Virus record (IMG/VR): IMGVR_UViG_3300028800_000061
Span: 62,001 to 126,000 of that record
DNA length: 64,000 nucleotides
From: a virus
Reading direction: 5' to 3' (one strand)
The translations under genes were made by a program, and so were the position numbers. A model generated the notes under the pieces. That model made no database searches. It saw nothing but the letters and a program-made list of their open reading frames with translations, and was not told where the DNA came from. Each line of letters begins with the position of its first letter. The first letter of the stretch is position 1. Positions 10,783 through 63,626 of the stretch are shown here, in pieces.

Positions 10783-11319
10783 ATGACGGTCATACCAGTC
10801 GATCATGCGATGTGCAGGGATGTCTTGCGTGCGCTAGCAGGCGCCGGCGGCGCCCAGCGGGTGATGCACAGCCTGGGGGCGATGTCCTGGCTGACCCGCG
10901 CCGGCACCCGGCATCCGGCCATGGCTGTGAGAGTCCCTCCCGGGCAGAAGGAGCGGCTGCAGGCACGCGCTGACGCGGCCGGGGTGACACTCAGCCAGCT
11001 CGCCCGGGCACGATTCGCCGAACCGGAGGACTGGATGCACGGGCACTGGGAGGCGATCTGCGAGTGGGCCGTGGTGCACCGGCTGCCCGTTCAGATGGTC
11101 CGGGACATCCTGGCGATCGGCGCGACCCACGAGTACGAGCCGGAGGACAACCGGCGCCCAGAGATGCGCGTATTCGATACGGCCATGCAGCTCGCTGCCC
11201 GGATGCCAGGCATGAGTCATGATGCTGCGTACCACGCGGCCCGTGCGTGGCTGCTGGCGATGGATTTCCCTCCTGAGAGTGTGTTAGCCGGTCGCACGAT
11301 CGCACTGTGTGACGCATAG
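10783..11319 (+). CDS. Ribbon-helix-helix domain protein (possible partition protein)
   Basis: A 178-aa protein; ATG 10783 follows GGAGGCAAGGA. Residues about 47-78 (MAVRVPPGQKERLQARADAA, then GVTLSQLARARF) form a typical RHH segment: a basic beta strand, then two helices. The C-terminal 100 residues are helical and unrecognised. The gene's 3' end overlaps an array of TCGCAC repeats and ParA follows 500 bases downstream. RHH proteins such as ParG and omega bind short tandem repeats and pair with ParA, so a centromere-binding role is a reasonable inference. Confidence 0.65.
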   Translation: MTVIPVDHAMCRDVLRALAGAGGAQRVMHSLGAMSWLTRAGTRHPAMAVRVPPGQKERLQARADAAGVTLSQLARARFAEPEDWMHGHWEAICEWAVVHRLPVQMVRDILAIGATHEYEPEDNRRPEMRVFDTAMQLAARMPGMSHDAAYHAARAWLLAMDFPPESVLAGRTIALCDA

Positions 11320-11353
11320 TCGCACTGTCGCATTGCCGGTGTCCCATGCGACA
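11292..11353. repeat. TCGCAC direct repeats, array 1
   Basis: Copies of TCGCAC/T at 11292, 11300, 11320 and 11328; the close pairs are spaced exactly 8 bases apart. TGTCGCAT (11326-11333) is repeated in inverse orientation at 11346-11353. The array covers the end of the RHH gene. Candidate centromere or operator for the partition module. Confidence 0.6.
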
Positions 11354-11486
11354 GATTCCTGTGTCCTGCCTGGTGGTTGCGGCCCTGGTCTTGCGCGCCC
11401 CAGCCGGTACTACCTGCTGAGACTCTGCTTTCTCGTTCGCGGTCGCCGTGATCCGGCCAGGTCAAAGGCGGGCGGCGCACTGTCTG

Positions 11487-11516
11487 TCGTACTGTCGCAC
11501 GCTCGCACTGTCGCAC
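11487..11516. repeat. TCGCAC direct repeats, array 2
   Basis: Four tandem 8-bp units beginning at 11487, 11495, 11503 and 11511 (one TCGTAC, three TCGCAC). The same motif and period as array 1 within the 500-base gene-free region before parA. Confidence 0.65.
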
Positions 11517-11780
11517 GCCGTGGCCCCTTGTCCGCCGCCATCCCGGCGTGGCCCCCGGCCGCACCACCTTTCCGTTCCCTCCCCATGCTGCGCGGCGCTC
11601 GCCCTGGGGTGCCGCCAGGCGTGCGCCCGTCGTTGCGCGTCCTGGCACGCGCCGCGCGTCCCGCGACTCCCATCGCCCTGTCCCGGCCTTGCAAGTGGCC
11701 GTGTGCTGTGCTAACCGCCACGGCATGCGCTATCCGTTACTGGCGTACCACGGGCCATCAGGGGAATGTGGCGGATGTAC

Positions 11781-11810
11781 TTCACAACGCCCGCGCGAAC
11801 GGTCTACGAT
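11781..11810 (+). promoter_or_regulatory. Candidate parA promoter
   Basis: TTCACA (11781-11786), 18-base spacer, TACGAT (11805-11810). ATG 11819 would be at or next to the transcription start, giving a leaderless mRNA, which is common in actinomycetes. The remaining 11354-11780 holds array 2 and no gene I can support. Confidence 0.5.
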
Positions 11811-11818
11811 CCGTGCAC

Positions 11819-12580
11819 ATGACCTCCAGGACGGCTGCTGCTACCACCAGCAACACGCCCGCTGCGCATCCACTGTTCAATGTCACCTACGTGCCCGGCC
11901 GGCCGGTCACGGTCATCGCTGTCGCCTCCCAGAAGGGAGGGGTCGGTAAGACGACTGTTGCCATGACCTTCGCAGCGGCGTTCGCGCACATCGGCTATAA
12001 GGTCCTGCTTGTTGACATCGATCCGCAAGCGAGCGCGTACGACATGTCGCAGCTGATGGGGGACGCGTGCCCTTACCAGGTCGTGCACGAGGTCAACCCA
12101 GCCGAGCTCGCCACGTTGCGGGATATCGGCGGGGTAGAACTCATCTTCGTCGACTGCCCGGGGCATCTTGAGAACGCCCCCGTTCTCGGCACAGTCGTCA
12201 AGTCGGCAGACAGCGTGATCATCCCGTATCCGCATCAGATCGCGGCCATGCAGATGACGGTGAACACGGTCGATTTCGTCAACCGTGCCGCGGCTGAGGC
12301 TGGCCGGGAGGTCCCGTGCTGGGTCCTGCTGAACAACATCGACGCCCACTGGGGTTACGCCCGCATTGAGGACGCCTGGCGCACTCTCGACCAGGAAGGC
12401 ATCCGGTCTTTCCGGTCGTACCTCCGCGCATATCAGGCGTACCCGGACGCACAGGCCCTGGGCATACCACTGATCGAGATGCGCGGCGGATCTATGACCC
12501 GGGTCCGTGACAACCTGGCCCGGGTCATAGAAGACTTTGATGAGATTGTGCTCGGCAATCCGCGTTGGCGGCGCGGGTGA
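11819..12580 (+). CDS. parA: ParA-type partition ATPase
   Basis: A 253-aa deviant-Walker ATPase. KGGVGKTT is at residues 39-46, VLLVDIDPQAS (Walker A') follows, and LIFVDCPGH is Walker B. This is the ParA/Soj family that moves plasmids or chromosomes on nucleoid DNA. There is no N-terminal HTH, so it is the short type whose partner binds the centromere. ATG 11819 was chosen because of the leaderless promoter; GTG 11768 is an alternative. The next gene overlaps its stop by GTGA. Evidence that the element can be kept as an extrachromosomal replicon. Confidence 0.85.
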   Translation: MTSRTAAATTSNTPAAHPLFNVTYVPGRPVTVIAVASQKGGVGKTTVAMTFAAAFAHIGYKVLLVDIDPQASAYDMSQLMGDACPYQVVHEVNPAELATLRDIGGVELIFVDCPGHLENAPVLGTVVKSADSVIIPYPHQIAAMQMTVNTVDFVNRAAAEAGREVPCWVLLNNIDAHWGYARIEDAWRTLDQEGIRSFRSYLRAYQAYPDAQALGIPLIEMRGGSMTRVRDNLARVIEDFDEIVLGNPRWRRG

Positions 12581-13260
12581 GTCCGCAGCCGCGCGTGTCG
12601 CTCGCCGCAGTGCGAGCCCAGCAGATAGCTGATGCGGCGGCCAGCGCGCCGCCTGGCGAAGACGACCAGGGGCCCGCGCTTGAGTCCGTGCCGCCCACCG
12701 CGGGCGCACCAGCCCAGGCGGCAGCGCCGGCCCTCAACCCGATGCCGGCCAGCGCGCAAATCGCTGTCATGCCCGCGGTGGCAACACCCGCCACGGAGGC
12801 AGTACCCGCATCCGGGCTGCTGCCACGGATCTCTTTCACCTCGATCCTGGCCGCGTGCGATGACGCCAAGATGTCCCGCAGGTGGGTGATGTACTCAGTC
12901 AAGATGCCCGATCCATTGCGGGCCCGGCTGACAGGGCTGATGCTCGAGCATCGTGAAGCAACCGGCGATTACAGGCTGGCCCTCAACCACTACCAGAATG
13001 TTGCGTTCGCTCAGATCCCCGCCGATGTGCGGGAGGCAGCCGCATGGGGTGTGATGTGGCGCGACCAGCAGGAACTCCGCCTGACCGATGCGCCGGGATC
13101 GGGAACGAAACTGCACGGCGATGTTGTCGAATCAATGCGGCAGCTCGGCGGCCGCTTGCGGACTTTGGAAAGCCGGGTGTGGCTGTGGGAGATTCAGGCC
13201 GCAGCTATCGAGCGGCTTCTCAGCCAGCTGGATCCTCCGGGCCGGCAGCCGGTTCAATAG
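12577..13260 (+). CDS. Putative ParA partner protein
   Basis: A 227-aa protein coupled to parA by GTGA. Residues 1-80 are an Ala/Pro-rich linker-like region. From about 85 a helical domain follows (MYSVKMPDPLRARLTGLMLE, YRLALNHYQNVAF). Genes in this position usually encode the centromere-binding or ATPase-stimulating partner. No ParB helix-turn-helix is seen, so the assignment is by position only. Confidence 0.55.
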   Translation: MSPQPRVSLAAVRAQQIADAAASAPPGEDDQGPALESVPPTAGAPAQAAAPALNPMPASAQIAVMPAVATPATEAVPASGLLPRISFTSILAACDDAKMSRRWVMYSVKMPDPLRARLTGLMLEHREATGDYRLALNHYQNVAFAQIPADVREAAAWGVMWRDQQELRLTDAPGSGTKLHGDVVESMRQLGGRLRTLESRVWLWEIQAAAIERLLSQLDPPGRQPVQ

Positions 13261-19910: not shown

Positions 19911-20098
19911 CCGGGACCAGGCCGCGCCCTGGCAGGAATTCAGTCATACGGCCCCTTTGGGCTTGTTAGGTCCAATGTGCCGCCGAATGACCCAGCGAAT
20001 CCCTGTAGCAGGCGGTATGGCGCTATTCTTTGACCGCCCGCAAGGTGTAACAGGTGCGATGCAGTGAATGGTCTCACGGGGCAGGGGGTGAGCATTCC

Positions 20099-21598
20099 GT
20101 GACCGTGGCAACGGTAACTCAGGCGTACAAGTACGAGCTGGACCCAACCCCCTCACAGGCGCGGATGTTCGCCTCCCATGCTGGTGGGGCCAGGTTCGCG
20201 TACAACTGGGGTATCGCCACGATCATTGCCGCACTGGATGCGCGGCAAGCTGAGAAGGACGCGGGCGCCGAGCCGACCGTTCCGGTGCCCGCCCACTTCG
20301 AGTTGTGCAAGATGTGGACGGTGTGGAAGGACACCGCCGAGTGGACCGACCGCGCTACCGGGAATGTCACTGATGGTGTGGGGTGGGTCGGGGAGAACTT
20401 CGTCGGCACGTACCAGGCGGCGTTGCGTGATGCGGCCGGCGCATGGAAAGCGTTCTTCGCGTCCCGTTCGGGGAAGCGGAAAGGCCGGCGGGTCGGCCGG
20501 CCCCGTTTCCGATCGAAAGGAAAGGCCCGGGAGTCCTTCCAGGTCCACGGCGCCGTGTTCCGGCTGGCGCCCGGGCCTTCGGCCAAGTACCCGGGCACAC
20601 GGCGGGTCCGCGCGCACACACCAGCGCCGATGGCCTCGTACATAATGCTGCCGAAGATCGGCCCGGTCCGCTCGCACGAGTCGACACGGAAACTGCGCCG
20701 CAGGATTGACAACGGCACCGCGAGGATTGTCCGCGGCACCGTAGCGAAAAACGCCGCAGGCCGGTGGCACATCGCGATCACCGCCGAGGTGCAACGGGAC
20801 GTGCGGCTGAAGCCGTCTGCCCGGCAGCTGGCGGGCGGCATCATCGGTGTCGACTTGGGTGTGCGGGACACGATCACTTTGTCCACCGGGGAGTCTGTGA
20901 AGAACCCAGCTCACCTTGAGCGCTCGCTGCGCCGGCTGGCGGCCGCGCAGCAAACTGTCGCCCGGCGTACCAGGATCGGCCGGCCGTCCTCGGCGCGGCG
21001 GTTGAAAGCTGTCGAGCGGGTCGGCCGGATCCACACCCGGGTCAGTAATCTCCGGCAGGATTACCTGCACAACCTGTCCACCCGGCTGATCCACGAGCAT
21101 GCTGGCATCGGGGTGGAAGGTTTCGACCTGCAGCAAGTTGCAGCCCGCGGCGGCAGGAGCGTGCCCCGGCGGGTGCGACAGGTGCGGAACAGGCTCCTGG
21201 CCGGATCCGCACTCGGAATGTTCCGCTGGCAACTGCAATCGAAAAGCGCCTGGTACGGGTGCCAGGTGCTGGTCACCGGCGCGCAAGCACCGTCGGGCAG
21301 GACATGCTCCCGGTGCGGGACGGCAAAAGCCACGCCGATCCCGCCCCATCTGGAGCTGTTCCGGTGCCCGCAGTGCGGCCACGTCCAGGATCGGCGGCTT
21401 AACACTGCCCTGGTTCTGGCGCAGTTCGCGCGTGAAACGAAAACGACGTCCGGGACTGGCTCGGAGTCGCTAAACGCCCGTGGAGAGGATGTAAGCCCCG
21501 GGCCCGTCCGCAAGGGCAGGACCGGGCGATCCTCGTTGAAGCGGGAAGCCCGCCCCAGGGGGCAACCCTCGGGTAAGACGGGCACCCCCAGCACGTAA
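20099..21598 (+). CDS. tnpB: TnpB RNA-guided nuclease (IS200/IS605 or IS607 group)
   Basis: A 499-aa protein. N-terminal QAYKYELDPTPSQARMFASH is the usual TnpB start. RuvC residues are all present: GVDLGVRD (Asp about 252), VEGFDL (Glu about 340), DRRLNTA (Asp about 431). The zinc finger CSRCG...CPQCG is intact. TnpB proteins are RNA-guided DNA nucleases that help keep their transposon. No TnpA transposase is adjacent, so this is a stand-alone copy. GTG 20099 was chosen for the GGGGG site and the canonical N-terminus. Confidence 0.9.
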   Translation: MTVATVTQAYKYELDPTPSQARMFASHAGGARFAYNWGIATIIAALDARQAEKDAGAEPTVPVPAHFELCKMWTVWKDTAEWTDRATGNVTDGVGWVGENFVGTYQAALRDAAGAWKAFFASRSGKRKGRRVGRPRFRSKGKARESFQVHGAVFRLAPGPSAKYPGTRRVRAHTPAPMASYIMLPKIGPVRSHESTRKLRRRIDNGTARIVRGTVAKNAAGRWHIAITAEVQRDVRLKPSARQLAGGIIGVDLGVRDTITLSTGESVKNPAHLERSLRRLAAAQQTVARRTRIGRPSSARRLKAVERVGRIHTRVSNLRQDYLHNLSTRLIHEHAGIGVEGFDLQQVAARGGRSVPRRVRQVRNRLLAGSALGMFRWQLQSKSAWYGCQVLVTGAQAPSGRTCSRCGTAKATPIPPHLELFRCPQCGHVQDRRLNTALVLAQFARETKTTSGTGSESLNARGEDVSPGPVRKGRTGRSSLKREARPRGQPSGKTGTPST

Positions 21599-21954
21599 GG
21601 GCTGGGCGTCCCCAACCACCTGCCGAAAAGCAGGCAGCACAACTCAACAGAGGCAAGCGCAGACGTTCGACCGGTGGGCGAGGGGAGGCTCGCGAATCCC
21701 CTGCTGGCTACTGCTGATGTCCGGGACGAGGGGCCTAGCGCAGGTAACGTCCCATGCCGGCCATGCTGGGCGAGAGGGAGATCACCAGTCACGGGGGTGA
21801 GAGGTGTAGCAGTGGTGCCCCGCGTGGCCCGGGCCGCTCACACGGAGGGGATGCGGGGAAGTGAACGACTTGCCTGGTACCGGGATGAGGGCATCGGCAC
21901 ATTGCTGGGGCTGAGAGCAGTGGCAGCAGGCCGGCGGCGAGAGCAGTAGAGACA
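21599..21954 (+). mobile_element. Probable TnpB right flank / omega-RNA region
   Basis: This stretch follows tnpB and has several short hairpin arms (GGGGAGGCTCGCGAATCCCC near 21683; GGGACG...CGTCCC near 21721-21753). In TnpB elements the guide RNA scaffold lies at the 3' end of the gene and runs to the right end. A 91-codon open frame here (21674-21949) is probably not a protein. The exact element ends were not found. Confidence 0.4.
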
Positions 21955-34199: not shown

Positions 34200-37100
34200 C
34201 TATTTGGTTGCGAGCGTGAGACCGTTAGTACCGTTCCTGCGGTTGTAACGCAGGGTGTACTTCTGGTCAGTAGCCTGAAGATTGCTGCCGGTCGGCCATT
34301 GCATCTTCAACGTCAAATTCAGTGTCTGCTGGGAAGATGTGACACCGAACCCGCCCGCTCCTTGCGATGCGGCCAGGGCCACGCCTGTGGCCGGGTGCAC
34401 AGTCCCAGGTGCAGTTGCGCTGCTGAGCGCCCTCATGGCAGCAGTCACATGCGGCAGCCCGGCGATGATTCCTTGCGCGAGTCCTTGTGACACCATCATC
34501 CCGTGCTGGTACATCACCGTCGATGGCGACTTGATCCCCAGATCTTTCTTGATCTGGCTGACCATGCCTTTAGCGATCTTCGTCATTTCCTTCGTGATCG
34601 CTTTTTCTTGCGCTTCCAGCCCGGATAGGAAACCCTTCCCGGCCTGGGCGCCCGAGTCATACATGGCGTTAGCGGCGGTTTGCCCAAGCGACTTAGACGC
34701 CGAAGTGATACCAGACTCGGCTTTGTTGATCGCCTTAATGTTCCCCGGGACCTGCAATAGCGCCTTCGCGATGGCCAGGCCCTGCACGGGCCCGGCCTGG
34801 ATGATCTGGTTGATGTAATCCTTGTTCAGCCCCAGTTTCGACAGTTGGCCGATCGCCGACTTGAACTGGTTTATCTGGGACAGGTCGGCCTGCAAGTTGG
34901 CCAGAATGTTCTGCGAGGTGATCGGCCCGCTACCCGCTGCCGACACGAGATCAAACGTGCCAGCGACGCTACTGGCCGTGTTCGTGGCGAACGTTTTCGC
35001 CTTGGAAATCGTTGACATGATCGCGGATCGTTTGGTGGCGAGGGCTTGCAGTTTGTTGTTGTCAGCCTCGATCCACTTGGTTACGTTGCTCTCCGTCTGA
35101 GAGGAGATATCGCCCGCGTCAAACGCTTCCTTGATGTAGGTGACCAGTTTCCCGGCTGCCGATTTGACTTTCGACGCAGTTCCCTCAAGTCCCGCGACTA
35201 TGCCGTTGCCGATTTCAACCGCAATGTTCTGCATGACCTTCGACGGTGAGCTGATCCCGAGCACGCTCTTGATTGACGATATGGCCGCGCTGCCGATACT
35301 GCCTGCCGCGTCACGTACGGCCCCGAGGGACGCGGTGATTCCGTGAACGAAACCCATGATCAGGTTCTTGGCCAGGTCGTACAGCAACGTGACCGCACCG
35401 TTGAAAATGGTCCGCATCACGTTGAGGATGCCGTGGATCTCATCCGAGGTCAGTTTTTTCAGGTCGGTCCACGCTTTCGCCCAGTGCCCGGTGATGATGT
35501 CCAGGAACAGTGCGATGGCGTCGCGGATTATGGCCAGCTCGGCGCGGATTAGCGCGGCGACAGTATCCCAGACTAGTTTAACCGTGTCGCGTATCAGGCC
35601 CCACGCGATAGTCCATGCGGCTTTAATCACTGCCAGGTCGATTTTGATCGTCGCGATTATCTCGGCGAGATACGTCTTGACGATGAAACTTACAACCGCC
35701 CAGACGACCCGTGCGACCTCTTCGATTTCCTTGTGGTTCTGCTCCCACCACACCCTGAATGCTGCAATCTGCTGCTTCACAAACACAAGCGGGCCGTGAA
35801 CGAACCAGTCGATCACGGCACCCGCGGCGCGCATCGCCACCGCCCAGGCGGATTTGAAAGCGTTCGCGACATCATGAACGATGTCACGGACCAGTTTGCT
35901 GTGCTCATACAGTTCGTACAGGCCAAGCGCGAGTGCGCCGATCGCAATGATCGCGACACCGACGGGGTTAGCTGAGAGAACTGCGCCAAGGCCCTCCACC
36001 GAGGCGGTGACCAGCTCCACCCCCACCGCGATAGCGATAACCGCCCCAGCGAACGCCGCCATCTTCTCGTGGTGGGAAATGAACTCCATGAACTTGTCAA
36101 CCGCCCGCACGACTTTGGTGAAGATGGGCAGCAGTTTCGTCCCGAAAGTGATGACCAGGTTCTCGACATCGGCGAGGAACTGAGTCCAGGCGAAGTGCGC
36201 TGTCTTCTCCGTCTCAGACCACGACTTGCCGTATCCTGATACCGCCTTGCCTATGCCTTCGTACTTGGTTCTGATGTTGTCCAGATTCGACATCAGGGAC
36301 AGCATGGCTTTGTCGGACCGGCCGCCGCCGAACAGTTTCGCCATGACCTGCGAGGCCTGGGCTGCTGACAGCCCGGACGCTTTGAAGGCTTTCTCCATGT
36401 CCGACAACGCGATGTAGATGCCGTCAGGTTTCCGCAGATCCGTGGCGATCTTGTTGACTGTCAGCCCGTAGGAATTCATCACATCGGCCAGCGACTTGTT
36501 TTTCAACGTGATATTGTCGGTCGCCAGTCCAAGTGACCGCAGGAACGTGTTCGCCTCCTTCGACCCTGATGTGACCATGGAAAGCCCCATGGTCAACCGG
36601 GTTGAAGCTGTCTCCGCAGTGTTACCCCGGTCAGTCAGGTACGCCAAGGCCGCACCCATTGACCGGATCGAAATGCCCATGGCCGCGGCGGTAGGCGCCC
36701 AGTTCTTAATTGACTGGTTAAAGTTCTGGAAGCGCATGTCGCCCTGGCCGACGATCGCGTTCAGCAACCCGGCGGTCTTGGCGGCGTCACTGGTGTTCAG
36801 GTTGAACGCCTTCATCACCGATGACAGGGCGTACGTTGTGTCTTCCAGATCGGCGCCGTGGATCTGCGCGAGCTTGGCCGAGTTGGCGACAGTCGCAAGC
36901 GAGTTACTCAGACTCAGGCCAGCGCTAATTGGGTGGTAGAGAGCCGTCGCGATGGCTGTGCCAGATTCCCCAGTCTGGTATCCGATCTGGAGGATCTTCT
37001 GGGACAGTGCGGCCATGCTTATACCGGTCAAGTGCGCGGCGGTGTACAACTGGGTGACGGCAGCCTGAAACTTCATCGCTTTGTCGATGGAGTAACCCAC

Positions 37101-37889
37101 GGCGACTGCGACTCCGGCGATGGCCAGCTTCGTTGCTGAGCCGAGTCCGGCCATCGCGCCGGCGTTCCGCTCGTTCGCGGCCGCTTCCTCGTTGGCCATA
37201 TCCCGTGTCAGCCGCTCGTCCGCTGCCAGGGTCTGCTGAGCTTTCGCCGAGGTCGCCGCAGCCCGGGCGGACGCTATGTGGGCATCCCGGAGTGCCGCTT
37301 GCACCTCGAGGGCGCTCTTGGCCATGTCCGCTTCGAGCGCCTCAGCTTCAGCGAGCTTGGATTCGGCGGCCGCCGCTTCAGCCGCCGACGCAGCCAGCGC
37401 TCTCTGCTCCTCCGCTGCTGCTGCGGCGGCGGCGCCGGCCCGCTCAGCTCCGGCAGCCGCCTCAGTTGTCGCCTCGCCGGCGGCCTGCGCACCGGCGGCG
37501 AGGCGCGCTTCCGCTGCGGCAGCCTCGGATGCGGCGTCGATTGCGCGGGCGAGCCCATCCACCAGCAGCCACTCGGCTGAGGTGAGATCTGTTTCGGCGG
37601 CGACGGTTTGCATGGCCGCGGTGGACAGTTCCTCTTGCGCCGCGGCCTGCTCGGTCGCGGCTGCTGTCGCAGCCTCGGATGCTGCGGTAGTGTCGGCGGC
37701 GCCGGTTGCGATCCCGCCCGCGCTGACCGCACCAGCGGTTGCCTCGGTTGATGCGCGAGCCAGATCTTGCACCTCAGCGATTGAGGCCATCAGCCGCTCG
37801 TTGCTGGCGATCATCTCGTCGATGCCCGCAACCCATTTACTGGCATCCGCGACAAACTCTTCGATCGCTGGTGGCAGCAGTTCAGACAC
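34200..37889 (-). CDS. Tail tape measure protein
   Basis: A 1229-aa protein: a long Ala/Glu-rich coiled-coil N-terminus (about 1-230), a TP901-like tape-measure domain (about 250-600), several hydrophobic segments in the middle (about 605-760), and a helical C-terminus. It sets tail length and helps DNA entry. It starts at GTG 37889, directly after the gp10-like gene, and follows the tail-assembly chaperones by two genes' distance, as in most siphoviruses. Confidence 0.9.
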   Translation of the reverse strand: MSELLPPAIEEFVADASKWVAGIDEMIASNERLMASIAEVQDLARASTEATAGAVSAGGIATGAADTTAASEAATAAATEQAAAQEELSTAAMQTVAAETDLTSAEWLLVDGLARAIDAASEAAAAEARLAAGAQAAGEATTEAAAGAERAGAAAAAAAEEQRALAASAAEAAAAESKLAEAEALEADMAKSALEVQAALRDAHIASARAAATSAKAQQTLAADERLTRDMANEEAAANERNAGAMAGLGSATKLAIAGVAVAVGYSIDKAMKFQAAVTQLYTAAHLTGISMAALSQKILQIGYQTGESGTAIATALYHPISAGLSLSNSLATVANSAKLAQIHGADLEDTTYALSSVMKAFNLNTSDAAKTAGLLNAIVGQGDMRFQNFNQSIKNWAPTAAAMGISIRSMGAALAYLTDRGNTAETASTRLTMGLSMVTSGSKEANTFLRSLGLATDNITLKNKSLADVMNSYGLTVNKIATDLRKPDGIYIALSDMEKAFKASGLSAAQASQVMAKLFGGGRSDKAMLSLMSNLDNIRTKYEGIGKAVSGYGKSWSETEKTAHFAWTQFLADVENLVITFGTKLLPIFTKVVRAVDKFMEFISHHEKMAAFAGAVIAIAVGVELVTASVEGLGAVLSANPVGVAIIAIGALALGLYELYEHSKLVRDIVHDVANAFKSAWAVAMRAAGAVIDWFVHGPLVFVKQQIAAFRVWWEQNHKEIEEVARVVWAVVSFIVKTYLAEIIATIKIDLAVIKAAWTIAWGLIRDTVKLVWDTVAALIRAELAIIRDAIALFLDIITGHWAKAWTDLKKLTSDEIHGILNVMRTIFNGAVTLLYDLAKNLIMGFVHGITASLGAVRDAAGSIGSAAISSIKSVLGISSPSKVMQNIAVEIGNGIVAGLEGTASKVKSAAGKLVTYIKEAFDAGDISSQTESNVTKWIEADNNKLQALATKRSAIMSTISKAKTFATNTASSVAGTFDLVSAAGSGPITSQNILANLQADLSQINQFKSAIGQLSKLGLNKDYINQIIQAGPVQGLAIAKALLQVPGNIKAINKAESGITSASKSLGQTAANAMYDSGAQAGKGFLSGLEAQEKAITKEMTKIAKGMVSQIKKDLGIKSPSTVMYQHGMMVSQGLAQGIIAGLPHVTAAMRALSSATAPGTVHPATGVALAASQGAGGFGVTSSQQTLNLTLKMQWPTGSNLQATDQKYTLRYNRRNGTNGLTLATK

Positions 37890-52206: not shown

Positions 52207-52653
52207 CCCATCGAGTACGCCAGTGAGTTGCCCTGCGGTGAGCCCACCCGCAACCGCAGCGAGAAGGGCTTGCTCCAGCCGTGTCACCCGCGTTGCCACC
52301 AGGCCGCCCACCCGCCGGTCACCCTCGTCAAGGATCGACTGCAGTGAGCTGTCCGGCGCGTCCAGGTCGATGCTGGTGATCTGGACGGCCGAGTTCCGGC
52401 CGAGCCGCCAGCCGTCCGCCCACAACTCCCGCATGATCCTGGTGAGCGCCACAGTTAGCGCTGCGGTAACCCCGGTTCGTTGCAGGTACCGTTTCGGGCC
52501 ACGCGGCCGCGCTGCTGCACCTGCCCCGTTGCCGCTAGCCAGCCACCCGGCAGCGAAATCGGCGGGCAAAACGCCCTGCAGTTCCCTGGCGAGCCGGCCA
52601 GCGTACTGGGCTGCTAGCTGCCGGTCCCGCTCCCACCCGGGCCAGTCAGGGCT
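51913..52653 (-). CDS. MuF-like capsid morphogenesis protein, -1 frame after portal
   Basis: C-terminal text TWSMSLAALAYYQQARIAAV, VGWATAGDATVCAVCDGNEA and PPAHPNCRCSLYP is the MuF signature. The frame is open from 52665, just past a TGA at 52668-52666, to the stop at 51913. There is no ATG or GTG before a TTG at 52569. The 28 codons before that TTG (DWPGWERDRQLAAQYAGRLA) also look like MuF. It is therefore probably made as an extension of the portal through -1 slippage, giving about 1069 aa. MuF proteins sit inside the head near the portal and may carry effectors. Confidence 0.8.
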   Translation of the reverse strand, partial: SPDWPGWERDRQLAAQYAGRLARELQGVLPADFAAGWLASGNGAGAAARPRGPKRYLQRTGVTAALTVALTRIMRELWADGWRLGRNSAVQITSIDLDAPDSSLQSILDEGDRRVGGLVATRVTRLEQALLAAVAGGLTAGQLTGVLDGLLGNEPAALVVTQTEVTWSMSLAALAYYQQARIAAVGWATAGDATVCAVCDGNEAAGLIPVGDEFPSGDDQPPAHPNCRCSLYPGDTGQSMMPADVI

Positions 52654-55121
52654 TTTGGGCTGCCATCATCCCCGCCACCCTTGTTGAGCTTGGCCCGGTT
52701 CATCGCCCCGTCCCACGGCCCGGTGTCCGTGCCCACAACACCGACCCATGCGAGGGTGCTTGTTTTGCCTGCCCGTTTGAGAGCGAGAGTCCGGTGCCAG
52801 CCGTCAGCGATCTCGTACTTCGCCTGGCCGGGTACTTTCACCAGCACGACCGGCGCGAGTTGCGTCCCGGCCCGGATGGATGCGGCGATCGCTTCTACTT
52901 TCGCCGGGTTGCGTGCACCGCCCGGGCGGCGGGCCATCTCGATCCGGGACAGTGCCACGGATACCGGCCCATGCCACCGTGCATCTTTGACCCACTCCAG
53001 CACGGCGGCCGGGTAGTGCCGTGCCAGGTACGCGTACACCTCATGTGTCAGATCGGCGTGGCTGGTCTGCGCCGCGATCTCTGCTGTGCTCTTGGTGCTC
53101 AGCATCGACCGGGCTACATCGCACACCTGATCGGCGGTCAAGCCCTTGCCCAGGTCCTCCTCGATGCTGGCGAGCAGTGCAGCGGGCAGATCTTGCGGCG
53201 CCCACCCGGTGACTGTGCCGCCTTTGCGCAGGTGATTGCGCAGCAGATCCAGTTCTCGCAGTTGCCCTTTCCTCGCGGAGGTTGGAGTGGCGTTCGCGGA
53301 GCCGACCGCACCGGAGCGCGCACCGGAGTGCGCCGGGGTGCCCCGGCCGGACTGGCTGACCGCGCCGCCGATTGCCCGCGGTGCCGGCTGCTGGGCGACC
53401 GTGGCGGGCCCCGCTGGTGGCGCCTGCTGCGGGGCGGTCGACGGGCCGCTTGTTCCTGCGATCTGCGCTGGATCCAGCGGTGCAGGTGTGGGCCGGGAGC
53501 CGGTGACCTGCGGTGCGGTCGGCGCACCAGCGAACGGGACGAAACCCTCGCGGACAGTCGCCCATCCAGGGTCGGAGGTGACAGGAAGGTTCCACGGGTC
53601 GCGGCCCAGCTCGACACGGGCCTCATCGACGGAGCACAATCCTGCGCTAATCTGCTCCACAAGAAGGGTTGTCAGAGTGGCGGCGTCTTCATCTTCTTCC
53701 AATCCTTCCCATTGCCACTCAAGGTCTTCCTGCCCGCACACATCTTGCAAGATCCTGTCGAATACCGCGGCCTTCAGCCACATTAGCAAGGGGACGGTTC
53801 CCTTGCGCTCCTGAATGTCCTGCCCGGCTTTCGCCATCTGGTTCGCCGCACCGACACTCTGGGTCGCGGAGACACGCGGTGAGATGCCCAGTTCCATGGG
53901 CATGACGGAGAACGCCATGCACACCTGGGTCATGATGATCTCATCGAACTGGTCGGCCAGGCTCGCGGGCTTCTGCGGGTCCACTTTCGACCCGCCTGGG
54001 AGAACAATGATTTTGTGCTTCCATGCTTGATCACCGGCAAGGGCATTCAGCGCGTCTTGAAGCTCCCGGATCTGCTGCGGGGTCATGTTCGTGTCACCCG
54101 GCGAAACGAACAGGCCAGGAATGGATCCCTCTTGGAAAAAGTTCAGCTGATACTGCTGCCGGTTCAACCCAGCCATGACCGGGATAATCGCCCGCTCAAT
54201 GGGCGCCTGACCGTACGGTGTCCACGTGCGGGCGGTGTACGGCAGGTACATCAGCTGATCGCCCCGGTACTCCGCGATGAGCCCGTCATCTGCGGTTTCC
54301 TCAACCAGCAGCGTCATCAGGTCCACACGCGGGACACCGTATTCGTATTGCTGATAGGCTGGGTTGGGCGGTGCTGGCACTCCGCCAAGCACATCCACCA
54401 GTGGCCGGATAAGTGTCCCGTCGATAAGATCTAGCGCGGCCACGTTTGATCCGAGCAGGCCCTTGTTCCGCACTTTCGACGGGTGCACGTACAGCGCCAG
54501 GGCGTCGGTAACGAACACTTCCTCAAGCAACGCGTCGAACCATGAGGAAAAATCGCCGTAGCGCGGATCGGGCTGGCGGAAGAACTTGACAGCCTGCGCC
54601 CTGCGCTCCGCGAAGTCGGCCATGCCGCTGTGCGAGCCCCGCAACGATTTCGCGGCGTCCCTTGTCAGGGCAATGTTCCACCCGACGCCACGCAACTCCG
54701 ATTTGCGCAATTCGATGCACGCACGGGCGACACTGTACAGGTCCGCGAGAGTCCGCAGAGTCTGGAAGTCGGCGAGCTTTCCAAGGCCTTCCGTGCCGGG
54801 CATGCCCATAGGCATGTCCCAGCCGATCGGGTACTGGAAGCGCCTTATCGGCGGCCTTTCCTCACCCGGTTCCGGAGTGTCAATCGGGACTGGCTCTATG
54901 GGGGCGAGCGGCCCGAACATGCCGGACAGGAATGTTCGCCAGTCTCGTGGCAGCCCGCCGTGCTGGCCGGCTGACCGGCCGGAGGTCCACTCGTTGTAAG
55001 AGGCAACGAGCGGGGACGGGCCCGGGCTGATCGACGGCGGTGTGACCGTGGCGAATCCGCCTGACCGGCCAGCGGCTGTCGCTTTCAGGGTGCGGGTGAT
55101 GGCGCGCAGGTCCGTGGGCAC
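52614..55121 (-). CDS. Portal protein with C-terminal ParB-like domain
   Basis: An 835-aa protein from GTG 55121. Residues about 100-530 form the siphovirus portal: LYSVARACIELRKSELRGVG, LALYVHPSKV, GLNRQQYQLNFFQEGSIPG, MPMELGISPRVSATQSVGAANQ. A Pro/Ala linker (530-600) leads to a helical part and a ParB/sulfiredoxin-like domain (about 730-805): SRIEMARRPGG, IADGWHRTLALKRAG. The end holds the slippery C CCA AAA. The portal forms the DNA channel at the capsid vertex. The extra ParB-like domain is unusual. Confidence 0.85.
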   Translation of the reverse strand: MPTDLRAITRTLKATAAGRSGGFATVTPPSISPGPSPLVASYNEWTSGRSAGQHGGLPRDWRTFLSGMFGPLAPIEPVPIDTPEPGEERPPIRRFQYPIGWDMPMGMPGTEGLGKLADFQTLRTLADLYSVARACIELRKSELRGVGWNIALTRDAAKSLRGSHSGMADFAERRAQAVKFFRQPDPRYGDFSSWFDALLEEVFVTDALALYVHPSKVRNKGLLGSNVAALDLIDGTLIRPLVDVLGGVPAPPNPAYQQYEYGVPRVDLMTLLVEETADDGLIAEYRGDQLMYLPYTARTWTPYGQAPIERAIIPVMAGLNRQQYQLNFFQEGSIPGLFVSPGDTNMTPQQIRELQDALNALAGDQAWKHKIIVLPGGSKVDPQKPASLADQFDEIIMTQVCMAFSVMPMELGISPRVSATQSVGAANQMAKAGQDIQERKGTVPLLMWLKAAVFDRILQDVCGQEDLEWQWEGLEEDEDAATLTTLLVEQISAGLCSVDEARVELGRDPWNLPVTSDPGWATVREGFVPFAGAPTAPQVTGSRPTPAPLDPAQIAGTSGPSTAPQQAPPAGPATVAQQPAPRAIGGAVSQSGRGTPAHSGARSGAVGSANATPTSARKGQLRELDLLRNHLRKGGTVTGWAPQDLPAALLASIEEDLGKGLTADQVCDVARSMLSTKSTAEIAAQTSHADLTHEVYAYLARHYPAAVLEWVKDARWHGPVSVALSRIEMARRPGGARNPAKVEAIAASIRAGTQLAPVVLVKVPGQAKYEIADGWHRTLALKRAGKTSTLAWVGVVGTDTGPWDGAMNRAKLNKGGGDDGSPKALTGPGGSGTGS
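52653..52659 (-). promoter_or_regulatory. Slippery heptamer C CCA AAA between portal and MuF
   Basis: Portal codons AGC CCA AAA GCC contain the same heptamer as the tail chaperone gene, in the same phase. Slipping back one base reads CCC AAA AGC CCT GAC, which is the MuF frame. The zero-frame portal ends 13 codons later at TAG (52614). Confidence 0.8.
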
Positions 55122-58942: not shown

Positions 58943-59557
58943 CTACTTGCCGTTGCGACGGTTGCGGCGTGCCGTTGCCGGCGTGGTGGCCGGAACGGTG
59001 GCCGGAACGGTCTCCGTGTCCGTGGCCGGAACGGTCTCCGTGTCCGTGGCAACGGTGGCCGGAACGGTCTCCGTGTCTCCGGCCGGAACGGTCTCCGTGT
59101 CGTTACCCTCGGACGGCCCTGTAGTGGACTCTGCGCTGTCCGGAACGGTCTCCGTGTCTCCGGCCGGAACGGTGGCCGGAACGGTCTCCGTGGCCACTAC
59201 AGTCACGGGCAGGGACTCTGCCATGCGGAGCGACTGATTGGCCGGCCGTCCGGCTGCGGCATTGGCGTGCTGGCGTTTGTCGCATGCGTTCTGCACACGG
59301 CAGTTTGGGCGGGTCTGAATGGCCTGGAACGGGAAGCCGCAATTGACACAGTGCGCGTATCCGGGCCGCAACGGCTGTCCGTTGCTGCCGGTCCGCAGGA
59401 TGGCGCTTCCGGTGAGCGCGTCCAATCCGGCCTGATTGGCGACGGGGTAGGTGAGTCCGGCTGCGGACAGTATGGCCATGGCGGCCGCTACCGCATCGGG
59501 GGTGGCATTGGCCTGTACAGCGCTGTCTGTGGCCGGGGGGCTAATGGTGTCGGTCAT
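58943..59557 (-). CDS. Zinc-binding protein with DTETVPA repeats
   Basis: A 204-aa protein. Residues about 69-97 hold CVNCGFPFQ...CRVQNACDKRQH, a likely zinc finger. The C-terminal 85 residues repeat TETVPA about six times with GD or TD spacers, then end in a basic RRNRRNGK. This is like a flexible stalk or multi-copy binding site. ATG 59557. Its function is unknown. Confidence 0.6.
   Translation of the reverse strand: MTDTISPPATDSAVQANATPDAVAAAMAILSAAGLTYPVANQAGLDALTGSAILRTGSNGQPLRPGYAHCVNCGFPFQAIQTRPNCRVQNACDKRQHANAAAGRPANQSLRMAESLPVTVVATETVPATVPAGDTETVPDSAESTTGPSEGNDTETVPAGDTETVPATVATDTETVPATDTETVPATVPATTPATARRNRRNGK
58980..59205 (-). repeat. Tandem repeat GGAACGGTCTCCGTGTC
   Basis: About six copies of a unit of roughly 18-24 bases built around GGAACGGTCTCCGTGTC on the plus strand, coding for DTETVPA. 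Copies are nearly identical, so copy number may vary by slippage. Confidence 0.8.
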
Positions 59558-59890
59558 TGTCCTGGTCTCCGATCGGTTGGGATTTGCTTACATTCACCAA
59601 CCTAGTGGAGTGCGGACGCCTGTCAACACGTTTCGACCATACCGTTATGGACCTGTTATAAATGGTTGACGGTTAGCGGATCGCCGTTCGCCTGTCAACA
59701 TGTTACGGAGCCTGTTACCGTACCGTTATGCGGTTACCGTGTGTGACATACTGTTGTCAATACCGGCCCAGCCATTGTTACCGCATCGTTACTGCTATAC
59801 CTGCTATGCGGAGCACTAGCAGCAGTGTGAGCCGCCCCGCCGTGGGCTCGCGGCTCGGACGAACCTCCTGCCCGAGCCCGCCCGCACATC
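59558..59890. promoter_or_regulatory. AT-richer control region with TTGACA boxes
   Basis: Minus-strand TTGACA occurs near 59617, 59694 and 59755, each with a plausible -10 (TAGGTT or TAACCG) 16-18 bases on. GTTACCG and CCGTTATG short repeats occur between them. GGTTGG...CCAACC (59577-59602) lies just upstream of the 59557 gene. No protein gene is supported. Confidence 0.5.
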
Positions 59891-60480
59891 CGATCATGAT
59901 TAGAATTTTTTTTTCTGTTCCGAACCCGCTCGGTCTCGGCTCGGCGGCTCACCCGGGCGAGATCGGAGCGCGATCCAGCTCCGCGACCCGAGCGGGCTCT
60001 CGAGGCGGCCCGCCGCCCTGGAGCGATCCTCCGAGCAGGCCGCGATACCGGGATCGGCCCTCCGAGCGTGATCGCCCGATCGGGAACGATCCTCAGGGCA
60101 GGCTCCCCGACCGAGACCAGCTCTCCCAGGCGGGCTCGCCGATCCCGGTCCGATCACCGAGCGGGATCGCGCTCCGATCGCGGACCTATCTCACGGCCGC
60201 CCGCGAGCGCGCACCCATTCATGATTAGAATTTCTTTTTCTGTTCTAACTCGGATCTGAGATCGCGCTCGGATCGCGGCCGAGTGCGACTGGGGTGCTCC
60301 ACTCGGCGGGCTCTGCGCGGTTCGCCGCAGTGTGCGATCGTGTCCAGATCGCGGGCCCGGGCAGATCGCGCTCAGATCGTGCTCAGGTGTGGCGGGTGAG
60401 CTGCGGCCGCGAGCGGGATCGTGTCCCGATCGGGGATCGTGCTCCGATCGGGGTTGCGGTGTGTGAGCGCGACCGCACAG
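59891..60480. repeat. GATC-dense noncoding island 1
   Basis: By eye there are about 23 GATC sites in 600 bases, where one or two would be expected at this composition. Many are spaced 11 bases apart in a degenerate unit GATCGCGCTCC/A. The island begins with and contains copies of TCATGATTAGAA (59894 and 60219), each followed by a T-run. No gene is supported. Confidence 0.7.
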
Positions 60481-60536
60481 GTGGTTCGTGCGGTCGCGCT
60501 CACATCCCCAGGGCTCGCATACCCAGGGAGCATGGT

Positions 60537-60725
60537 CTACCCCCAGGCGTTCCACTCCCGGGGGTAGATGGTGGAGGTGAACCCGCACCCGGGGGTACGG
60601 CAGGTGCACGGGGCGAACACGATGATCGGGTCGCGGCCGATGATGGTTGCCACGTGGGTATCGGGGTTGTGCTCGGCGGTGGGCCGGGTGCCGCCGGCCA
60701 GCGGGGTCACCTGCCCGCTTGCCAT
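60537..60725 (-). CDS. Hypothetical protein, 62 aa
   Basis: ATG 60725 overlaps the end of the membrane protein gene. APCTCRTPGCGF is a likely metal-binding loop. Not recognised. Confidence 0.5.
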   Translation of the reverse strand: MASGQVTPLAGGTRPTAEHNPDTHVATIIGRDPIIVFAPCTCRTPGCGFTSTIYPREWNAWG

Positions 60726-60895
60726 GACAGGCTCACCTGGTGGCCCTGGATGTACAGGTCGACGTAGGCGGTGTCGGTGCCCACCGCGATGTCGCGCCAT
60801 CCGTGAGCGTGGATCAGCTGGGTGCCCAGGAGCATAAGGGCGCCCAGGGCGAGCAGGCTTAGGGCGGCGGCGAGGGTAGCGCGGGTCTTTGGCAT
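60707..60895 (-). CDS. Small membrane protein, 62 aa
   Basis: ATG 60895 follows AGGAGG. Residues 1-25 form a signal anchor (ALSLLALGALMLLGTQLI), then a small polar domain. Transcribed from the promoter overlapping dyad copy 2. Confidence 0.6.
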   Translation of the reverse strand: MPKTRATLAAALSLLALGALMLLGTQLIHAHGWRDIAVGTDTAYVDLYIQGHQVSLSWQAGR

Positions 60896-60907
60896 GGGGT
60901 GCCTCCT

Positions 60908-60952
60908 GTAGCTGGTAGTTTGTCCTGGCGTGCAAGACAAACATACCAGCTA
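60908..60952. promoter_or_regulatory. Operator-like dyad, copy 2
   Basis: Core TTGTCC (60920-60925), 9 bases, AGACAA (60935-60940; one mismatch). The arms extend to GTAGCTGGTA...TACCAGCTAC, about 45 bases in total. TTGACA on the minus strand at 60966-60961 is the likely -35 for the 60895 gene. Confidence 0.65.
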
Positions 60953-61027
60953 CGCGCGCGTGTCAACACGTTTTGCGGGTGTTTTCTGCGAACGTTTCCG
61001 CAGCTCAGGCGGCGTCGCCGACTGTGG

Positions 61028-61105
61028 TCACCAGCCGAGCGGCATGCTCACCGCGAGAGCAAACGCCACGTAGGCAAGTCCGGCCAGAACAAGAATTACG
61101 CGCAT
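61028..61105 (-). CDS. 25-aa membrane peptide (tentative)
   Basis: ATG 61105 with GGAACTCGC upstream; one hydrophobic helix (VILVLAGLAYVAFALAVSM). It lies between promoter-like direct repeats at about 60957 and 61144. Very short, so uncertain. Confidence 0.3.
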   Translation of the reverse strand: MRVILVLAGLAYVAFALAVSMPLGW

Positions 61106-61184
61106 TGCGAGTTCCAATCTGTTCGTGAGCCCGTGCGGGCTAGGGGGTTCGTGTCAGCACGTTCCGCGGGGTGTTTTCTGCAGG

Positions 61185-61511
61185 TCAAACCCCCGCAATC
61201 GCCTTCTCTGCGAAATCGCGGATCGCCGCCGGCAAATCCAGGTCGTACGAGCCGCCACCACCGGTCCACCCGGCCTCGCCGTACCCCACCACATGGGTGC
61301 TGTACGTCACCTGCCCGCCGCGGTCGTGCTCGACCACGATCGCGTGCCGGCGCGGGTGCAAACTCGCATCGGGACGGAGCGCGAACGCGGCGATCACCGC
61401 ACCACCCTCAAACCGCTGCGGCGGATCCAGCTGGGGGCCCATGGCGTCGTAGGCGGCGCGCAGCCGCCCGCCGATGACCACCAGGCCGTCCGAGCTCGAC
61501 TGCCCGCTCAT
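61185..61511 (-). CDS. Hypothetical protein, 108 aa
   Basis: ATG 61511 overlaps the upstream stop (ATGA). Alpha/beta protein (VIGGRLRAAYDAMGPQLD; HAIVVEHDRGGQVTYS). Not recognised. Confidence 0.55.
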   Translation of the reverse strand: MSGQSSSDGLVVIGGRLRAAYDAMGPQLDPPQRFEGGAVIAAFALRPDASLHPRRHAIVVEHDRGGQVTYSTHVVGYGEAGWTGGGGSYDLDLPAAIRDFAEKAIAGV

Positions 61512-61816
61512 GCGAGATCGGGGCACTGCCGGCAGGGATAGTGACCCTGGTGAACTGTTATGTCCGGGTGACGGTGAGTGGGACGGACGTTCTGCACGCT
61601 GTCGGCCACGATGAAATCGCCTGACGTCATGTCGTCGTAGACCTTGGCGGCCAGGTAGGCGCTGAGCCTGTAGACCTCGCTTATGGCGGTGAGCAGCAAA
61701 CGCTGCGATGCCTTGTAAACGGGCTGGTTGCTCTGCGCGAGGCGGTGATCCTCCGCGCAGGACAAAGCGTAGTGCGTGTCCGCGACTTGCTGGCAGAGCT
61801 TCTGCTGGGGAGTCAT
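61508..61816 (-). CDS. Hypothetical protein, 102 aa
   Basis: ATG 61816 follows GGAGG. Helical N-terminus (QQKLCQQVADTHYALSCAED), then CRQC near the end. First gene behind dyad copy 3. Confidence 0.6.
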   Translation of the reverse strand: MTPQQKLCQQVADTHYALSCAEDHRLAQSNQPVYKASQRLLLTAISEVYRLSAYLAAKVYDDMTSGDFIVADSVQNVRPTHRHPDITVHQGHYPCRQCPDLA

Positions 61817-61841
61817 GCCTGTTGCCTCCGTGCCGTTTGGC

Positions 61842-61862
61842 TTGTCCTACCTACAAGGACAA
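61842..61862. promoter_or_regulatory. Operator-like dyad, copy 3
   Basis: TTGTCC (61842-61847), 9 bases, GGACAA (61857-61862), extended by TTGG/CCAA on the flanks. Just upstream of the 61816 gene on the minus strand. Confidence 0.75.
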
Positions 61863-61919
61863 TCCAACCAGCCGCAGCAGTGCAACGGCAACCAACTCAA
61901 CAGAATTGTTAGCGAACGT

Positions 61920-62190
61920 TTTTGCCGTTCAGATCGTGTTCGCGGCTCTTCGAATCAGCCCCGCGATCCCGTTCCGATCGGGGATGGTGACCATCCCCGG
62001 CCCCGATCACGTTCCGATCCCGGATCGCGCTCCGATCTGCCCTCGGAACGTGATCCCCGATCCGCCGATCGCACTCAGATCGCCCGCGGCGAGCGAGCAC
62101 CACCGGTCCACGACCACCCGCGGCCCGCCCGCCCAATCATGATTAGAACTTTTTCAACCCGGATCGCGTTCAGATCTGCCCCCGAATGCC
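61920..62190. repeat. GATC-dense noncoding island 2
   Basis: About 13 GATC sites in 260 bases, again as a degenerate GATC + 7 + GATC pattern. It ends with AATCATGATTAGAA (62136-62149). No gene is supported from 61863 to 62236. Confidence 0.7.
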
Positions 62191-62236
62191 CGTGCGGCTC
62201 GCGAGCCGGCGTGACCCGCGAGCCGCACAAACCCGG

Positions 62237-62731
62237 TCAGGACCGCTTGTCCTCCATGCGGTTCAAGAGCGCCAGGCCGGCACCGACCGGGTTCTGCTCC
62301 TGAAACGCGCCGATGACCGCCGCCAGCATGTGGTTGTACTCACGATCGAACAGCTCCCGCTCCAGTGAGGTGCCGAAATCCACCGGGGAGCCGCCGGCGA
62401 GCGCTTCCTCCTGGTCCCACCGGGTGAACAGCAACTCCGCGGTGGCGGTGTTGAAGAACCACCAGTCGAGGTCCTCGTGGATAACCTGCGTGCGCTGCCG
62501 GGCCCCTTCGACCAGCGCTGCCGCCAACTCCGCGACCGGACCCTCATGCGCGCTCCGCACCTGGAAAGAGAGCCACTGCGCCCGCAGATTGTAAGCGCGA
62601 GCCAACGATTCGCTGACCCGCTCCAGGCGGATGACTCTATCGTTCACCGCATCCCGGAACCGCTTATCCGCCGCCTCCAAGATCTCCGACACCGTACGCT
62701 CCGCCTGCGTACCTGACTGCGCACCACTCAT
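62237..62731 (-). CDS. Helical hypothetical protein, 164 aa
   Basis: ATG 62731 follows GGGAGGTAG. Almost entirely helical with coiled-coil text (SEILEAADKRFRDAVNDRVI, LERVSESLARAYNLRAQWLS). Transcribed from the promoter carrying dyad copy 4. Not recognised. Confidence 0.6.
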   Translation of the reverse strand: MSGAQSGTQAERTVSEILEAADKRFRDAVNDRVIRLERVSESLARAYNLRAQWLSFQVRSAHEGPVAELAAALVEGARQRTQVIHEDLDWWFFNTATAELLFTRWDQEEALAGGSPVDFGTSLERELFDREYNHMLAAVIGAFQEQNPVGAGLALLNRMEDKRS

Positions 62732-62745
62732 CGAACTACCTCCCA

Positions 62746-62778
62746 CTAGGTTTGTCCTACTTCCAAGGACAAACCTAG
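62746..62778. promoter_or_regulatory. Operator-like dyad, copy 4
   Basis: CTAGGTTTGTCC...GGACAAACCTAG: 12-bp perfect arms with a 9-base centre. Core 62752-62772. The clearest of the four copies, 15 bases upstream of ATG 62731. Confidence 0.8.
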
Positions 62779-63140
62779 CAGCCACACACACCGCACAAGC
62801 AAACTCAACAGAACTGTAAACAACCAGGCACACCGCCCAGATCCGAGCGCGGTCACCCGCCCGTTCGCCACCCCATACGTTCGCCGAACAACCCCCCACG
62901 AGGACGAAAGCGAAAACCCTTCAGGGCGGGTGAGAGGCGCCGGGTACTCGGGGAACTACACCGGAACTCCTGAGGGAGCCTGCGGGAACGCTGATCGCCT
63001 GTGAGTCGCCGCAGATGGCCCTTCGCGGGGCGGGACTGCCGCACCCATTCATGATTAGAACTGCTCGGCGGGTTTTCGCACATTCTTGCGCATCCAGGTA
63101 CCCCCAGGGCGGGGGAATCGGGGGTACCTGGATGGGGGTG
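62779..63140. other. Gene-free stretch with a strong hairpin
   Basis: Contains a fourth TCATGATTAGAA (63049-63060) and a 15-bp perfect stem CATCCAGGTACCCCC/GGGGGTACCTGGATG (63091-63105 with 63120-63134), likely the terminator of the 63626 gene. No gene seen. Confidence 0.55.
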
Positions 63141-63626
63141 CTACCAGCCTGCTTCTGACCGGAACCGCATTCTGGTGACTTGCGTGACCGGGCCAGTAGC
63201 GCGGAGCGGCTGCGACGTAATCTCGAATGTGTCGATGTCTATGATCCGCAGTGCCGCCGGATCTCTTGCCGGGAGAACGAACAGCGAGTTGGTGCCCGCG
63301 TATACCTCCCGGTAGTAAACCGTGTTCCCGGCCATGCCCGTGACTCGCCGGATCGCCGCCGGTGGGCGGACAGGGCAATCGTGGGGCCGGATGACCTCAA
63401 GCTCGGTGCCGACAGTGATCCGGAGCTTGACGTCTCCCACGGTTACCATGCGGCCGCGGCGGGCGTCTGCTTGCCCGGTAGCGGTTATGTACACGGTGTA
63501 GGCCGCTCGGTCGGCGCAGTGGCGGCAATTATCGTCAGGGTGCTCGGCGGGATGCCACAGGCAGGTCGCGTGGTCCCTCAACCTTGCAGCGAGCGAGCCG
63601 GCGATCTCACGCCAGTTGGCGCTCAC
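63141..63626 (-). CDS. Hypothetical protein, 161 aa
   Basis: GTG 63626 overlaps the upstream gene. N-terminal TCLWHPAEHPDDNCRHCADR is a likely zinc site; the rest is beta-rich (VGDVKLRITVGTELEVIRPH; GNTVYYREVYAGTNSLFVLP). Not recognised. Confidence 0.6.
   Translation of the reverse strand: MSANWREIAGSLAARLRDHATCLWHPAEHPDDNCRHCADRAAYTVYITATGQADARRGRMVTVGDVKLRITVGTELEVIRPHDCPVRPPAAIRRVTGMAGNTVYYREVYAGTNSLFVLPARDPAALRIIDIDTFEITSQPLRATGPVTQVTRMRFRSEAGW

Follow-up and report, generated by a model that had tools for sequence, protein, structure and literature searches.

What are two gene-free islands packed with GATC tetranucleotides doing in the genome of a tailed phage? Phage genomes are compact and seldom contain motif-dense stretches without genes; those that exist usually mark the control of replication, partition, packaging or immunity. 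The stretch of DNA analysed here (64,000 nucleotides; the window) corresponds to positions 62,001-126,000 of the virus record IMGVR_UViG_3300028800_000061, and coordinates without an L prefix follow the numbering of the window. The record is 159,823 bases long with a GC content of 65%, and a 122-base direct overlap is common to both of its ends, as expected for a closed circular or permuted genome. Portal, tape-measure-like and terminase genes identify its source as a tailed phage (Table 1); a DnaB-like helicase and a tyrosine integrase are also encoded. The phage relatives of its ParA-like partition ATPase include those of Mycobacterium phage Gail and Streptomyces phage ZL12, and it is therefore plausible that we are dealing with a plasmid-like prophage of a high-GC actinobacterium. 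Elsewhere the record contains an IS605 OrfB/TnpB-type gene (20054-21610, PF07282) with a Cas12f1-like TNB domain, the 3' end of which is overlapped by a match to RF03015 (the Rfam Transposase-2 RNA; 21538-21610). A DarB-like antirestriction megaprotein of 1730 aa is followed by a C5-cytosine methylase-like protein (L002:627-7864), and there are three PAPS-reductase-like genes (L006:1508-4413 and L002:15786-16838), two of which are adjacent.

The islands and outliers at 59892 and 61932 together account for 36 GATC sites, which confirms the count of an earlier reading of the same DNA (the sequence-only reading). The remaining window contains 7.1 GATC per kb. The enrichment reported earlier is thus present, but it amounts to 6-7-fold instead of roughly ten-fold, with Poisson probabilities of 6e-11 for island 1 and 7e-8 for island 2. 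Its restriction to this locus also holds: when GATC is counted per 500 bases over the 160-kb record, the densest 500 bp, with 20 sites, lies at the islands and all other windows have at most 11, so that no other region reaches the same density. Exactly 11 bp is the commonest interval between GATC sites (13 of 32, compared with 1.2 expected and a maximum of seven in 20,000 random placements), but it is not the interval of most sites, as had been stated. Both islands are intergenic, again as described; the span 59891-62190 as a whole is not gene-free, as several small minus-strand ORFs lie between the islands (60537-60895 and 61185-61816).

Table 1. Positions of the islands, their motifs and the surrounding features.
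Feature	Position	Strand	Remarks
GATC island 1	59961-60449	+	22 GATC in 489 bp; 8 copies of the 15-bp site
GATC island 2	61965-62176	+	12 GATC in 212 bp; 5 copies of the 15-bp site
15-bp sites, island 1	59961(-), 60141, 60165, 60260, 60336, 60364, 60417, 60435		
15-bp sites, island 2	61965, 62005, 62023, 62067, 62162		Half-site at 61932
TCATGATTAGAA, copy 1	59894-59905	+	T-rich run after, to about 59920
TCATGATTAGAA, copy 2	60219-60230	+	T-rich run after
TCATGATTAGAA, copy 3	62137-62148	+	
TCATGATTAGAA, copy 4	63049-63060	+	No adjoining GATC array; one degenerate site at 62840
TCATGATTAGAA, copy 5	L005:1967		One mismatch; outside the window
Perfect 17-bp hairpin	60462-60504	-	After gene ending at 60537; borders island 1
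17-bp hairpin	62191-62229	-	Just after gene ending at 62237; borders island 2
Perfect 15-bp hairpin	63091-63134	-	After gene ending at 63141; adjoins TCATGATTAGAA copy 4
TTGTCCT-N7-AGGACAA	60920-60940		One mismatch; before genes 60537-60895
TTGTCCT-N7-AGGACAA	61842-61862		Exact; before genes 61185-61816
TTGTCCT-N7-AGGACAA	62752-62772		Exact; before gene 62237-62731
204-aa gene	58943-59557	-	Downstream of island 1; no family match
102-aa orphan gene	61508-61816	-	Downstream of island 2
164-aa orphan gene	62237-62731	-	Upstream of island 2
Candidate parS	11292-11516	+	8-bp TCGCACTG-like direct repeats in two clusters; upstream of parA
ParA-like partition ATPase	11819-12580	+	
Tape-measure-like protein	34200-37889		PF10145
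Portal	52614-55121		PF04860
Terminase large subunit	L005:3528-5081		

The unit of both islands is a 15-bp site, GATC-RYGYYCM-GATC, in which two GATC sequences are placed one helical turn apart. It is present 13 times (8 + 5), with 12 copies on one strand. Inside an island the copies are irregularly dispersed at 18 to 180 bp from start to start, and no helical phase common to the inter-site distances was seen. Among the 13 sites, ten of the 15 columns have a pairwise identity of at least 0.85 and nine are invariant. The GATC arms define the sites and hence have an identity of 1.0; the interior G and C range from 0.85 to 1.0, and in the flanks the identity falls at once to background (about 0.2-0.5). 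All 13 sites score at least 20 bits, and the best match elsewhere in the record reaches 16.1 bits (at 62840), followed by 15.5 bits farther off. Exact GATCRYGYYCNGATC is found ten times in the window, each time inside an island, where shuffles predict 0. Only three other GATC-N7-GATC sequences occur in the remaining record, and their interiors are unrelated.

What the sequence-only reading took for an 11-bp degenerate repeat consists instead of isolated 15-bp GATC-N7-GATC pairs with a conserved RYGYYCM interior. A continuous 11-bp tandem array is rejected, the sites being pairs with unrelated flanks, and so is coding across the islands: in the site list the variable positions of the 15-mer do not fall on third codon positions only in any frame. 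The sharp borders and unrelated flanks favour dispersed protein-binding sites over a product of slippage, and the conservation of the 15 bp argues for a putative bound site and against slippage or a decayed tandem repeat. Of the functions proposed at the outset, it is the protein-binding array that gains support, from the sharply bounded 15-bp site, the strand shared by 12 of 13 copies, their irregular dispersal and their uniqueness to the locus. We put the probability that the islands are binding-site arrays for a sequence-specific DNA-binding protein at about 0.6.

The sites are accompanied by a second element, the 12-bp core TCATGATTAGAA. Its four exact copies are found only within 59894-63060, and all five copies, the mismatched one included, fall inside about 6 kb. 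The T-rich runs that follow it are long at two copies and short at a third. Three modules were compared, 59840-60180 (A), 60165-60510 (B) and island 2 (C). They align significantly before masking. Once the core and the GATC sites are masked, the similarity between A and C is gone and that between A and B becomes marginal, with six of 300 shuffles as good. Duplication of whole modules was rejected on this basis; within island 1, A and B might in part go back to an old duplication. Little beyond the two short motifs is common to the modules, which suggests that these motifs are what is being kept.

The local genes run on the minus strand. Read in that direction, a gene end is followed by a GC-rich hairpin, the GATC array and/or the core, a promoter region roughly 240-310 bp beyond the core and finally small orphan genes. 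A conserved palindrome recurring in several Streptomycetaceae genomes, GATCAGCCCGGATCC-N4-GGATCCGGGCTGATC (for example G054:C138:58398, G066:C103:235813 and G049:C3:156458), is probably a terminator hairpin. A different palindrome, TTGTCCT-N7-AGGACAA, is positioned just before the first gene in three operons of the window. When up to two mismatches are allowed in its seven-base arms, eight sites (56530, 60920, 61842 and 62752 in the window, and 1172, 1704, 5509 and 6211 in L005) span 118.5-132.1 kb of the record, and one further match lies at 146.3 kb. It sits before small genes and is often extended by TAG/CTA, a form that is absent from the IMG/VR contigs scanned. This palindrome is probably an immunity-type operator belonging to a phage repressor regulon. 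No constant distance between array and operator was seen. A scan for sigma-70 promoters found none, and the TCTAAT of the core is no more than a weak -10-like string. The neighbouring proteins that were tested have no match to a known or DNA-binding family. In the protein encoded at 58943-59557, a cysteine-rich (zinc-ribbon-like) centre is combined with a TETVPAT repeat tail for which a GGAACGGTCTCCGTGTC minisatellite codes.

Copies of the islands in relatives, which the sequence-only reading had proposed to look for, were sought in phages, plasmids, and viral and genome contigs, and none were found. In phages and plasmids, blastn detected no relative of the locus, motif scans of viral (IMG/VR) and genome contigs gave no related array, and a protein search with the neighbouring genes at 62237 and 61508 gave no homologue in viral contigs. 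The hits in L097-L100 are chance motif matches. L018 was also discarded as a relative; it is an unrelated phage with 53% GC and carries a perfect 11-bp tandem of GATCGGGGCAT upstream of its terminase genes (L018:8401-8437). As far as the collections searched show, the arrays appear to be private to the present record. Host genomes lend no weight to the suggested host-factor decoy. Pairs of sites no more than 30 bp apart were encountered at 44 loci in 84,980 genomes, mostly plain tandem minisatellites, and no dispersed equivalent of the motif pair exists in this set. Four GATC phased at 11 bp are seen in 44 of 150 Streptomycetaceae genomes, compared with 12 of 150 for a TCGA control at the same spacing, but GATC at spacings of 10 and 12 bp is seen in 39 and 85 of the 150, respectively. 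With these spacing controls, the idea of a class of 11-bp GATC arrays spread across hosts falls away. Short GATC-rich repeats abound in Streptomycetaceae at any spacing, the 11-bp phasing is not special, and therefore no host factor or decoy is indicated.

Each array lies between a terminator-like hairpin and the next promoter or operator and is provided with TCATGATTAGAA, from which we infer a regulatory complex. The protein that binds the arrays would probably be phage-encoded. Each 15-bp site would offer two GATC half-sites on one face of the DNA, one turn apart, such that one dimer or one two-domain protomer could contact each pair. With the sites near-uniformly oriented (8 + 5), the protein might assemble in a cooperative manner along about 490 bp and 210 bp of gene-free DNA. 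The resulting nucleoprotein complex, silencer or enhancer-like, would act on the flanking operons of small orphan genes. We rate the chances that a phage protein on the arrays forms such a complex over these operons as slightly below even; local transcription as the role of the arrays is a more tentative proposal, with the odds somewhat against it. Because the searches turned up no relatives for either the arrays or the neighbouring genes that were tested, the function, comprising protein binding, a binder encoded by the phage and transcription as the output, is what we infer. A bolder version of this model is rather improbable. Here, an undescribed phage protein would read GATC pairs one helical turn apart and build a large directional complex that, together with TCATGATTAGAA, switches or insulates an entire block of orphan genes for host takeover carried by a plasmid-like prophage.

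The regulatory complex has two main rivals, a lytic origin and repeats without function. In the latter case the islands would be a short repeat family, or a mobile cassette of intergenic DNA comparable to the PeSL elements of T4, spread without a function of its own among small-gene operons. All copies indeed lie in an orphan-gene region around the arrays that varies between relatives, a hairpin and a short conserved element are found at operon borders, and GATC-rich short repeats are common between genes in high-GC actinobacteria whatever their spacing. This explanation is nevertheless unlikely, given that the irregularly dispersed sites have unrelated flanks and a conservation that ends at the 15-bp border, that masking leaves the modules with little or nothing in common and that the 12-bp core is exact in four copies. 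In an iteron-type lytic origin an initiator would bind the repeats and melt the T-rich runs beside TCATGATTAGAA; directly oriented repeats do adjoin A/T-rich runs of 15-25 bp in gene-free DNA of 65% GC. However, the genes for a DnaC-like loader, a DnaB-like helicase and SSB form a cluster at record positions 16-19 kb, which places them over 100 kb from the islands in record coordinates, and no turn of the GC skew is present near the islands (122 kb of the record). These two results disfavour the replication control proposed in the sequence-only reading, although GC skew proved to be uninformative as an origin marker. Furthermore, 1.5 kb of gene-bearing DNA separates the two islands, the TCATGATTAGAA copy at 63049 has no array, and no initiator gene was found beside or within the repeats, the tested neighbouring proteins matching no family. 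We consider such an origin improbable. The signal could also reside in RNA, as a structured noncoding RNA or an array of RNA hairpins, since minus-strand fold energies are below those of dinucleotide shuffles (z = -7.3 and -4.4). With the motifs held fixed, however, z drops to between -1.1 and -2.9; the GATC arms never covary, the bases beside them do not pair, and no Rfam family is found at the islands. The motifs explain most of the excess in folding, so that a signal at the DNA level is favoured and an RNA structure becomes very unlikely.

Partition was the explanation favoured first. The phage encodes ParA, and the two clusters of 8 + 5 direct repeats are reminiscent of the pair of parS loci of RedRock (PMC7157519), such that the islands might form a second centromere for plasmid-like prophage maintenance. 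This idea was dropped once the TCGCACTG repeats appeared upstream of parA: two clusters of such 8-bp units directly precede the gene (11292-11338 and 11475-11516), and the islands, 48 kb distant, are built on another motif. The centromere of the phage probably lies at parA, away from the GATC islands, and a second one at the islands is doubtful in the extreme. Together, ParA and the TCGCACTG-like repeats suggest a phage-plasmid with RedRock-like partition. Within the ParA region (11292-12580) the DNA upstream is apparently gene-free, and a partner gene (12565-13260) has no family match. The position of the islands between the terminase and portal genes, together with a beta-class adenine methylase and the DarB-like protein encoded by the phage, would be compatible with a GATC methylation switch or with a counterpart of the P1 pac site, at which packaging depends on methylation of GATC by Dam (PMC12707154). 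A whole-record profile search for the Dam-like methylase that had been suggested as a check, however, gave a best score of 17.3 bits for the D12 family (PF02086), below the cut-off of 22. When scanned alone, the matching protein scores 26.3 bits, confined to residues 295-339, and is described far better by N6_N4_Mtase (65.6 bits). The sole adenine-methylase candidate (L003:5828-6919) is of the beta class and closest to CcrM; a C5 methylase is encoded too. With no Dam-type enzyme above the cut-off and this lone CcrM-like candidate, the methylase-binding array of the sequence-only reading finds no backing. The conserved interior and orientation of the sites would moreover be needless for GATC methylation alone. 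Packaging control, proposed alongside it, is disfavoured by the relative L007, in which terminase and portal are 70% and 59% identical and the 8 kb separating the two genes are free of GATC clusters; such a cluster is absent from every other relative compared as well. With no Dam found and relatives without the array, a Dam/SeqA-like or P1 pac-like site was rejected, and we judge methylation or packaging to be highly unlikely.

With the usual candidates placed elsewhere or disfavoured, the locus presents a clean, phage-private signal that has a defined 15-bp consensus and comprises two independent elements. If the protein is found, it would reveal a new DNA-binding specificity and provide a handle on how blocks of orphan genes are controlled in large phage-plasmids.

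Several known systems share features with the islands. Like these, the stoperators of L5-like (cluster A) mycobacteriophages are asymmetric, intergenic and mostly in one orientation. They occur singly, as 13-bp sites distributed throughout the genome (PMC9283540), whereas here all 13 strong sites are clustered within 59961-62176. RedRock, a phage with ParA, likewise has two direct-repeat clusters, its two parS loci (parS-L and parS-R) with eight direct 8-bp repeats each (PMC7157519), so 8 + 8 there against 8 + 5 here. The present islands differ in not being beside parA and in their 15-bp motif with GATC arms, and a better parS candidate adjoins parA in this phage. The pac site of P1 likewise concentrates GATC sequences in phage DNA and is flanked by late structural genes, but here no Dam was found, GATC is far more abundant, the conserved 15-bp unit is asymmetric and the array is absent from a relative with a 70% identical terminase. 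Iteron origins of the lambda O and P1 RepA types have direct repeats and A/T-rich runs in gene-free DNA in common with our islands, which in contrast have no initiator gene nearby and are split in two by genes. In T4-like PeSL cassettes a short conserved element and a stem-loop border small orphan genes, as is the case here; an early-promoter consensus was not found in our locus, and its GATC array has no counterpart in PeSL. Arrays of sites as such are known, while the motif and its arrangement are new.
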